NCBI GenBank assembly: GCA_946537725.1
Contig: CAMNFZ010000003.1
Coordinates: 1 to 44,278 of the forward strand
DNA: 44,278 nt
Direction of reading: 5' to 3'
Source: an uncultured Methanosphaera sp.
GTDB lineage: Archaea; Methanobacteriota; Methanobacteria; Methanobacteriales; Methanobacteriaceae
Under the pieces are notes generated by a model that worked only from the letters and a program-made list of their open reading frames with translations, was not told where the DNA came from and did not search any database. The translations under genes were made by a program, and so were the position numbers. Shown in pieces: positions 36,794 to 39,457 of the stretch (position 1 is its first letter; each line of letters begins with the position of its first letter).

Positions 36794-39457
36794 ATGTTCA
36801 GAATTACAAGCATTAAATTATCAATCTGTGTATATCATGAAAAAGAAGAAAATCTAGAAGAGTCATTAAACAAAATAAAATCACAAATTGACACAAAAAC
36901 AGAAATAATCTCCATAAACAAAAACGAAGACATACTTAAACAAACAAAAGGACAATATATACTACTAACTGACTCACAAAACATAGAAAACATAAACATA
37001 AAAAATATCACAAGTATACAAGATGAAGATATACTCCTAAACACAGACAAAACAACATCAACAACAATCACACACACAGATAATGCTAAAAAAATATTTT
37101 CAAATCCTAAAAATAATATGAACATCTACAAAACCGAATTTCTAAAAAATAATTCAATACAAATACCATCAAATCAAAAAAGCTACGAAAACATCTTATT
37201 CTATTATAAAACAACATTCCTAGCAAAAAAAATCACAACTAAAAACATATTCCAAAAAATCACCCATGACGACTCTATAGAAACACTCATACTAAACGAC
37301 TATAAATACACTTATTCAGATGAAAAAACATATACGATAAACTCAGAAGAACTATTCAAAACATTCGAAAATTTACTAACATTTTTTAAACAAAACAACC
37401 TTTATAACTTAAATAAATTCTATATATTAAACTATACATTCAATATACTAAGAAAAACATACAAACTAAACCAGGAAAACAAGGAAGACTACTTTAACAA
37501 ACTAAAAATATTCATAAGACATATGTCACAACACAACACAGACCTAGTATTAAACCTAAAAAGCAAAAACCTAAGATTCTACAGAATAATACAAGAAGTA
37601 AACACAATAAAAGAACTAGATTTATTACTAAAAAATGATGAATACGAAAAAGAAAACTTCATAACACACCACCAATTAGACAAATTCAGAACACTAATCA
37701 TAGATCTTAAAAATGTGGATTCAGAAGATAACATGCTAGAAATGGTGGAATTTCCACAAGACAATAAATCTAAATTCATTCTAGACAAATTCAGAGATTC
37801 AGAAGGTTCAGGTATAAGAATCATAAGTTTCAACAACAAAATAAACTTCAAAATAAGATGCATAAACAAAGGAAAATTAAATGTTTATGTACGGGGAGCC
37901 GACTTAAAAGACAAAAAAGCAAGAAGAATACCAATTACAATAGATTTAAAAAGATTCCAACTATGTGAAGAAGCATTAATTGAAGAAAACAAAGTAATAA
38001 CATACGAAAAACCATTAAAATACACTAAAGAAGTAGAAGACCAAGAAATAATAGATATCCAAGCAGAATGGTCAACAGTATCCAATCAGAGCATATATCA
38101 TTTTCAGGATACAATAAATTCTGCGCTAATGCCATTTGACACAATAAGATTTGACATAAAAAACGTTGGAAACAGTGACAACACCATAGAAGTCATAAAA
38201 AATACTGATGAAAACGCCAGTGAATATGCACCAGAATGGTTTACAGACAAAAATGGTATAGGAAAAGTAATACGAAGTTCCAACGAACATATACATTTCC
38301 AAATACAATGTATTAACTCGGGAACACTTAAAATATTCCTCAGAACACTGGATTTAAGAGACAAAAACAGACAAAGAATACCAGTAAAAGTAGACCTTGA
38401 ACAACTAATAGTAAACAATGACACATTAGTAGATGAAAACATCTTAATCTCCCATGACAAACCATATGAAATAACTCGGAACGTAAAAGATGGGGAAATA
38501 ATTGATGTAATAGCACACTGGTCACCAATATCCTCAAAAAGCACATACTTTGAATCAACAACCATAAGGTCAGACCTACTACCATTTACTACAGCAAGAT
38601 TTGACATAAAAAATAAAGGAAAATCAGACAATTGCATAGAAATATATTCAATAGATGATTATGGCGCAAAAATCTATTCACCCGGTTGGTTCAGAAATCA
38701 ATATGGTTTGGGACAAGTAATTGAAAGTGCAAAAGGTAAGATAAAGTTTAAAATTAAATGTATCAACGCAGGAACGCTGGAATTGTTTATACGGGCAATA
38801 AATTTCATGGATACGCAAGCATCAAGAATACCTCTAAAAATAGACATTAAAAGACTAATAATAAATGGTGACATCATAATAGATGAAAACAAACTAGTTT
38901 CACATGATAACCCATACACATACACAAAACAAGTAAATGATGGGGAAATAGTAACAATAAGTGCCGAATGGAATCCAATATCCAGAAAAAGTACGTATTT
39001 TGAATCATCAAATATAAGAAACGATCTCTTGCCATTCACAACATTACACTTTGACATAAAAAACAGGGGAGACAAAGAAAATAAAACAAAAGTCGTATCA
39101 TATGATGATGACAATATAATTAACTACACGCCAGGATGGTTTACAGACGAAACAGGTGAGGGAAGAATCATCGAAAGTGCCAAGGGAAAACTAAATCTAC
39201 ACCTTAAATGCATACAAAAAGGAGAACTCACATTATCCCTAAAAACAATGAACTTCAAAGATAAGACAGGACACAGAATGCCATTAAACATAGATATAAA
39301 ATCATTAACAATAAATAACAAAATATTAATAGAAGAGAATACATTAATATCCTATGAAAAACCATATGAATATACAAAACAGGTAGTGGATGGAGAAATA
39401 ATAAATATCAAAGTGGAATGGGCACCATTATCAGTTAACAGCCAATACTCAGACTAA
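36794..39457 (+). CDS. Degenerate GT-A-like protein with four tandem 150-residue modules
   Basis: 887 residues. Residues 1-80 (KLSICVYHEKEENLEESLNK, GQYILLTDSQNI) follow the opening of a family-2 glycosyltransferase but lack the nucleotide-binding Asp residues and the DxD motif, so this part is probably not a transferase. A helical region follows to about 297. The rest is four copies of a probable beta-sandwich module at 298-430, 448-580, 598-730 and 748-880, with exactly 150 residues between equivalent positions. Conserved in each: FDIKN, GWF or EWF followed by GxG, KIKCIxxGxL, RIPxxIDxKxL, SHDxPYxYTxxVxDGEI, and a final W-x-P-I-S. It is placed between glycosyltransferase and sugar-dehydrogenase genes, so a glycan-binding or assembly role is plausible. 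The ATG abuts AGGGG; an ATT 9 nt later (36803) has better ribosome-site spacing. Confidence 0.75.
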   Translation: MFRITSIKLSICVYHEKEENLEESLNKIKSQIDTKTEIISINKNEDILKQTKGQYILLTDSQNIENINIKNITSIQDEDILLNTDKTTSTTITHTDNAKKIFSNPKNNMNIYKTEFLKNNSIQIPSNQKSYENILFYYKTTFLAKKITTKNIFQKITHDDSIETLILNDYKYTYSDEKTYTINSEELFKTFENLLTFFKQNNLYNLNKFYILNYTFNILRKTYKLNQENKEDYFNKLKIFIRHMSQHNTDLVLNLKSKNLRFYRIIQEVNTIKELDLLLKNDEYEKENFITHHQLDKFRTLIIDLKNVDSEDNMLEMVEFPQDNKSKFILDKFRDSEGSGIRIISFNNKINFKIRCINKGKLNVYVRGADLKDKKARRIPITIDLKRFQLCEEALIEENKVITYEKPLKYTKEVEDQEIIDIQAEWSTVSNQSIYHFQDTINSALMPFDTIRFDIKNVGNSDNTIEVIKNTDENASEYAPEWFTDKNGIGKVIRSSNEHIHFQIQCINSGTLKIFLRTLDLRDKNRQRIPVKVDLEQLIVNNDTLVDENILISHDKPYEITRNVKDGEIIDVIAHWSPISSKSTYFESTTIRSDLLPFTTARFDIKNKGKSDNCIEIYSIDDYGAKIYSPGWFRNQYGLGQVIESAKGKIKFKIKCINAGTLELFIRAINFMDTQASRIPLKIDIKRLIINGDIIIDENKLVSHDNPYTYTKQVNDGEIVTISAEWNPISRKSTYFESSNIRNDLLPFTTLHFDIKNRGDKENKTKVVSYDDDNIINYTPGWFTDETGEGRIIESAKGKLNLHLKCIQKGELTLSLKTMNFKDKTGHRMPLNIDIKSLTINNKILIEENTLISYEKPYEYTKQVVDGEIINIKVEWAPLSVNSQYSD
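37685..39433 (+). repeat. Four tandem modules, 450-bp period
   Basis: Modules at 37685-38083, 38135-38533, 38585-38983 and 39035-39433, separated by 51-nt linkers. The third and fourth are closest, including nearly identical linkers (KSTYFES..IR.DLLPFTT), which suggests they arose most recently. The first is the most divergent. Confidence 0.8.

Follow-up and report, generated by a model that had tools for sequence, protein, structure and literature searches.

The wall-teichoic-acid transferase TarS acts on a poly-ribitol-phosphate chain (PMC5156392). Its C-terminal trimerisation domain consists of stacked carbohydrate-binding modules, to which polymer binding and a gain in processivity are attributed, and trimerisation through these modules was found to have little effect on kcat/Km (PMC5156392). 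The substitution of R75, D93, or D94 with alanine abolished the activity of TarS, and the substitution D178N severely reduced it (PMC5156392). In the GtfA-GtfB enzyme of the accessory Sec pathway, GtfB is an inactive subunit that binds the acceptor (PMC12809243). Wzt carries a C-terminal jelly-roll carbohydrate-binding domain on its export ATPase, and this domain reads the end of the chain (PMC9445017). Glycosyltransferases take up an unusual share of the gene content of gut methanogens, and many of them came from bacteria (PMC3445992).

In our study, we analysed a window of 44,278 nucleotides from an uncultured Methanosphaera sp., which is one contig of a draft genome (73% complete, 1.2 Mb). 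The window was found to contain the gene P0001, which encodes a GT2-like domain followed by four tandem modules (Table 1). The frame of P0001 was open across 887 codons in a contig of 30% GC, and neither a hydrophobic signal nor a membrane segment was found in its product. Self-comparison of the region 281–887 gave 46% identity at an offset of 150 (211 matches) and 3–9% at the other offsets between 130 and 169. The repeated aspartate was present at residues 304, 454, 604, and 754, within IDLKN in module 1 and FDIKN in modules 2–4, and no insertions or deletions were found between the modules. The self-comparison thus bore out the aspartate positions and the indel-free period of 150 residues given in an earlier sequence-only reading of this DNA. 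The exact spacing is no special sign, since other tandem arrays of the family likewise have periods of 149–154 residues. Nucleotide differences among the modules mostly followed the order of codon positions 2 < 1 < 3, which indicates a constrained coding sequence.

Table 1. Features of the window; positions are counted from its first nucleotide.
Feature	Positions	Strand	Description
P0003	35300..36787	+	CgeB-like glycosyltransferase (Glyco_trans_1_2); its stop codon 6 nt upstream of P0001
P0001	36794..39457	+	GT2-like domain, very probably dead, and four tandem modules; 887 aa; ATG start, no internal stop
P0001 N-terminal domain, residues 1–288	36794..37657	+	GT-A/GT2-like, from alignment, AF2 model, Foldseek, and homologue P0006
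Module 1, residues 289–438	37658..38107	+	Most diverged; 22/31 family-conserved residues
Module 2, residues 439–588	38108..38557	+	30/31 family-conserved residues
Module 3, residues 589–738	38558..39007	+	30/31 conserved residues; modelled, pLDDT 95
Module 4, residues 739–887	39008..39454	+	26/31 family-conserved residues
P0005	39480..40730	+	Nucleotide-sugar dehydrogenase, nearest to UDP-ManNAc dehydrogenase; same surface-glycan cluster
P0004	40996..42288	-	Ordinary GT2, DGDD and other motifs intact; contrast within the window to the dead domain
P0002	42713..43747	-	Coiled segment, then a tandem pair of modules from this family

The N-terminal domain of P0001 was modelled with AF2 from a 32-row alignment (pLDDT 86, pTM 0.85), and the model showed a GT-A fold. 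Its best Foldseek match was TarS (E 4.6e-8, probability 1.00, TM 0.60), and the top 47 fold matches in the PDB were TarS, RmlT, and TarP, all of them wall-teichoic-acid transferases. The profile of the aligned GT2 set also matched TarS (E 1e-42). No match to PF00535, the GT2 family of Pfam, was found for the whole of P0001 or for its N-terminus; the homologue P0006 matched this family above the cut-off (E 1.7e-7). The assignment of the N-terminus to GT2 was therefore supported by the homologue and the fold, and Pfam gave it no support. On the predicted fold, which is nearest to TarS, RmlT, and TarP, the best reading is that the domain descended from a GT2 of the wall-polymer-decorating type.

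The alignment with 31 GT2 relatives showed that the D/NDGSTD and GxGxxRN blocks were deleted from P0001. The metal-binding DXD motif was changed from DSDD to DSQN at residues 60–63, and FED was changed to YEN at residues 131–133 (YENILF vs FEDNxF), where the catalytic base ED became EN. In the profile alignment, D93, D94, and the proposed base D178 of TarS corresponded to Q62, N63, and N133 of P0001, respectively, and R75 fell in the deleted block. Only two residues critical for the activity of TarS were clearly retained in P0001, namely D91 (as D60) and E177 (as E132). A GT2 outline without catalytic residues had been read from the sequence earlier, and it was recovered here both column by column against the 31 relatives and in the active-site numbering of TarS; an intact catalytic site was not found in the N-terminus, as the claim of a dead transferase had implied. 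Judged by its sequence, the domain should no longer be capable of the usual binding of nucleotide sugar and metal or of supplying the catalytic base. We are highly confident that the N-terminus of P0001 is a GT-A/GT2 domain devoid of catalysis. The domain also showed a long branch and an odd composition.

A homologue of this domain was found in another genome of the genus, which we take to be that of Methanosphaera stadtmanae DSM 3091 (G016). The homologue, P0006 (L088:6919-8163), showed 27% identity with P0001 (E 6e-24) and shared with it the helical half of the dead N-terminus and the same neighbours. P0006 likewise lacked the GT2 motifs and contained DNNC, NSKD, and YDIG, a pattern different from that of P0001. 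As the loss of motifs is common to P0001 and its syntenic homologue, it appears to be old and retained rather than fresh decay, and the different manner of the loss in P0006 indicates that the loss was common and that the sites kept drifting. The order of genes at the P0006 locus was a UDP-ManNAc-dehydrogenase-like gene, a CgeB-type transferase, and the dead GT, whereas in the window the CgeB-type transferase P0003 was followed after 6 nt by P0001 and then by the dehydrogenase P0005. P0003 shared 52% identity with the C-terminal portion of the product encoded next to P0006. P0005 suggests a ManNAcA-type sugar in the glycan, and it passed the general nucleotide-sugar dehydrogenase cut-off only. 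Where P0001 has its four modules, P0006 had a coiled coil with a membrane helix, and a search of that genome found no member of the module family. The modules are thus not essential to the role of the dead domain, and we read the coiled coil with membrane helix and the modules as two possible means by which this dead domain is localised. The pair of homologues was present in 2 of the 20 genomes of the genus.

The module was modelled from an alignment of 48 members and was predicted to be all-beta (pLDDT 95.1, pTM 0.89), with some eleven strands and a single helix at the N-terminus. The polar residues R14, D16, N19, N25, D82, D85, R90, H116, and D117 were conserved. No match to the module was found in Pfam or NCBIfam; when the 48 members were scanned against Pfam, 16 families were hit by one member each (best E 0.003). 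The hits to PapD_C, Ig_SIBA-E, and ApyA RiPP were below the cut-off and inconsistent between members, and were regarded as chance. The Pfam scans gave no match of the module itself to any Asp family (Asp1/2/3 of accessory Sec). A sequence search of the PDB gave ribosomal proteins alone (E 0.3), and a Foldseek search against 350,542 PDB chains gave nothing at E < 0.001. This search covered PDB chains, so that a known but unnamed cellular fold family might escape it. The nearest fold match was weak, being the CBM35 structure 2w1w (E 0.037, probability 0.82, TM 0.34), followed by matches to PA14 sugar-binding domains and miscellaneous beta-sandwiches. The likeness of the model to CBM35 and PA14 may be taken as a hint and not as a classification. 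The module showed neither a sequence match nor a listed fold match with the C-terminal domain of TarS. Hence no characterised domain was found to match the module. The earlier reading was supported in part, namely for the dead GT-A/GT2 domain and for the use of the modules on surface-glycan enzymes; a carbohydrate-binding or scaffold protein stays a proposal, as the best fold neighbours included CBM35 and PA14 but no neighbour reached significance.

At least one module was found in 35 of 152 Methanobacteriota genomes (one of the 35 by a weak match) and in 4 of 20 genera, Methanobrevibacter included, with up to ten modules per genome. A search with the whole of P0001 gave no related loci, and a search with the consensus module picked up five loci from named organisms, bacterial in three cases. 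One match was in Pseudoflavonifractor, within whose order the module was present in 2 of 295 genomes. A Spirochaetia genome (horse faeces) contained two modules and an Alphaproteobacteria genome (roe-deer rumen) contained ten. This patchy and gut-linked spread is as expected for the movement of genes between gut archaea and bacteria, in either direction. A viral or plasmid origin is disfavoured, as searches of 50,697 phage records and of 72,556 plasmids gave no match and the viral fold search gave no significant one. In the module tree, the four copies of P0001 formed one clade (100/93) and the two copies of P0002 formed another (100/98), which shows that the arrays expanded separately, each within a single gene. 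P0002 was devoid of an in-frame ATG; it either starts at a TTG (43711) or is the remnant of a larger gene that lost its transferase part.

We examined about 70 carrier ORFs. The module was present at the N- or C-terminus, as a single copy in most carriers or in tandem, with adjacent copies spaced 149–154 residues apart; outside P0001, the highest number of tandem copies was three (L074, at a contig end). The partner domains in Pfam or NCBIfam were GT2, Glyco_trans_1_2 (GT4-like), GT10, GT61, LicD, DUF6270, and Methyltransf_24, along with a weak Asp2/CpsF-like hydrolase and a TagH/Wzt-type export ATPase (L084). These fusions agree with the earlier reading, which placed similar modules on surface-glycan transferases of gut microbes. 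The hydrolase part of L079:4060-5361 matched PF16929 (Asp2) below the cut-off (E 0.0012). The protein L084:3041-6148 (-) contained an asparagine-synthase-like region, one module, and a TagH/TarH/Wzt-like ATPase in one polypeptide, and the best PDB match of the ATPase was TarH (6jbh, E 4e-53). We read this protein, from its domain content, as one that may join modification, recognition, and export. L091:2406-5519 (+) contained the asparagine-synthase-like region and one module, followed by a probable ATPase, the ATPase being shown for L084 alone. A large group of carriers, namely L075:7646-9712, L076:9071-11140, L056:3327-5477, and about 17 related ORFs, contained an N-terminus of about 550 residues, which was recognised by none of Pfam, NCBIfam, and the PDB; its description as asparagine-synthase-like is our own reading. 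In two DUF6270 proteins (L077:4376-5890 and L079:5352-6746), which are SGNH-like by their GSC motif, the module was present at opposite ends. The DUF6270 carriers are candidates for esterases or acetyltransferases of this glycan, and none of the papers searched mentioned DUF6270.

Dead GT2 domains were not confined to P0001 and P0006. Among 85 GT2-like matches in the module clusters, five full-length proteins were devoid of both DXD and base, i.e., P0001, P0006, and three others (L071:4829-5881, L072:6788-7852, and L077:8276-9334; motifs KPST, NPGC; PE, DV). The gene next upstream of each of these three encoded a GT2 with two modules. The dead proteins forced 2 changes on the GT2-domain tree, which indicates two origins. 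The L071 and L072 loci are close relatives, and the live/dead pattern rests on few independent cases.

We give an even chance to the proposal that P0001 serves a surface-polysaccharide machine as a cytosolic subunit without catalysis, with modules that grip the glycan and with P0003 as its partner. The four beta-sandwich modules would hold the glycan under synthesis, or its carrier, and the four copies would give avidity. P0001 would work with the active CgeB-like transferase P0003, encoded 6 nt upstream, and present the acceptor chain to it, as the inactive GtfB does to GtfA. The binding of glycan by the modules appears somewhat more probable than its contrary; the partnership, which is proposed because the synteny is conserved in the presumed M. 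stadtmanae, is plausible but falls a little short of even chances. The partners of the module have only the handled polymer in common, from synthesis to export, which favours the recognition of a polymer or a lipid carrier. Several points count against this explanation: the module had no significant match to a carbohydrate-binding fold and no sequence match to the C-terminal domain of TarS, module 1 was missing several conserved residues, P0006 does without the modules, and the homologue pair was limited to 2 of the 20 genomes of the genus. An extracellular lectin or adhesin is disfavoured, since P0001 had no hydrophobic signal or membrane segment and the modules occurred on cytosolic enzymes and on an export ATPase; a place in an intracellular assembly machine seems the more likely.

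The lack of a significant match to known carbohydrate-binding folds would also suit a different role, in which the modules oligomerise or act as spacers and bind protein instead of glycan, and P0001 is a structural scaffold that gathers glycosyltransferases at the membrane. The stacked modules of TarS serve trimerisation and hardly alter kcat/Km (PMC5156392), the linker-free and constant spacing of 150 residues suits a rigid rod, and the coiled coil and membrane helix that stand in for the array in the M. stadtmanae homologue are both typical of assembly or anchoring. However, the module was single in most carriers and located at either end of unrelated enzymes, its conserved polar residues seem more than a pure spacer needs, and it was found on a TagH/Wzt-like ATPase, a setting in which a fused domain is known to recognise the polymer (PMC9445017). 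We consider this scaffold role unlikely, though it deserves to be kept in mind.

Improbable, in our view, is that P0001 is a functionless relic, recently fused and decaying in an expanding GT cluster. Its occurrence within the genus was patchy, modules 1 and 4 were short of conserved residues, and the N-terminal domain had a long branch and an odd composition, but 887 codons stayed open at 30% GC, the differences between modules showed constraint by codon position, and the helical half of the dead N-terminus was common to the syntenic homologue in another species. Very improbable is a domain that is highly diverged and still active through other residues. The first aspartate of DXD (D60) and E132 were kept and the fold was predicted with good confidence, but the segments with the nucleotide-binding aspartate and the conserved arginine were deleted, and the equivalents of D93, D94, and D178 were Q, N, and N, at positions where D93A and D94A abolish and D178N severely lowers the activity of TarS. 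Moreover, P0006 lost its catalytic sites by a different route.

More tentatively, and with less than even probability, the module may represent a new family of polymer recognition, a common address tag on proteins of synthesis, decoration, and export, and the pairs of a dead and a live GT-A may be general, having arisen at least twice. If this is true, live/dead GT-A pairs would be a general and unnoticed trait of archaeal surface-polysaccharide assembly, and the recurrent pairs would extend the GtfA-GtfB principle to GT-A enzymes and to archaea. One module marking the proteins of synthesis, modification, and export would let sets of genes be read as one machine. The module is also a small expressible domain with which the glycan could be fished out.

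TarS of S. aureus (PDB 5tz8, 5tze, 5tzi) and RmlT of Listeria (PDB 8bz4-8bz8) contain a GT-A/GT2 N-terminal domain similar in size to that of P0001, and in TarS, as predicted for P0001, tandem beta-domains follow the GT-A domain. However, TarS and RmlT are active whereas P0001 is devoid of an active site, and TarS has two C-terminal regions in place of the four modules of P0001. GtfB resembles the role proposed for P0001 in being a dead glycosyltransferase beside a live one; GtfA is of the GT4 type and GtfA-GtfB acts on a protein acceptor, whereas P0001 combines a GT-A domain with modules and its partner is proposed from synteny. The all-beta module sits on a TagH/Wzt-like ATPase in L084, and probably also in L091, a fusion that resembles Wzt. 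In L084 the module is N-terminal to the ATPase, after the asparagine-synthase-like region, whereas the domain of Wzt is C-terminal, and no sequence similarity was found between the module and the Wzt domain. Taken together, the design of TarS, the logic of GtfB, and the reading of the chain end by Wzt led us to propose P0001 as a chain-holding, non-catalytic subunit beside P0003.
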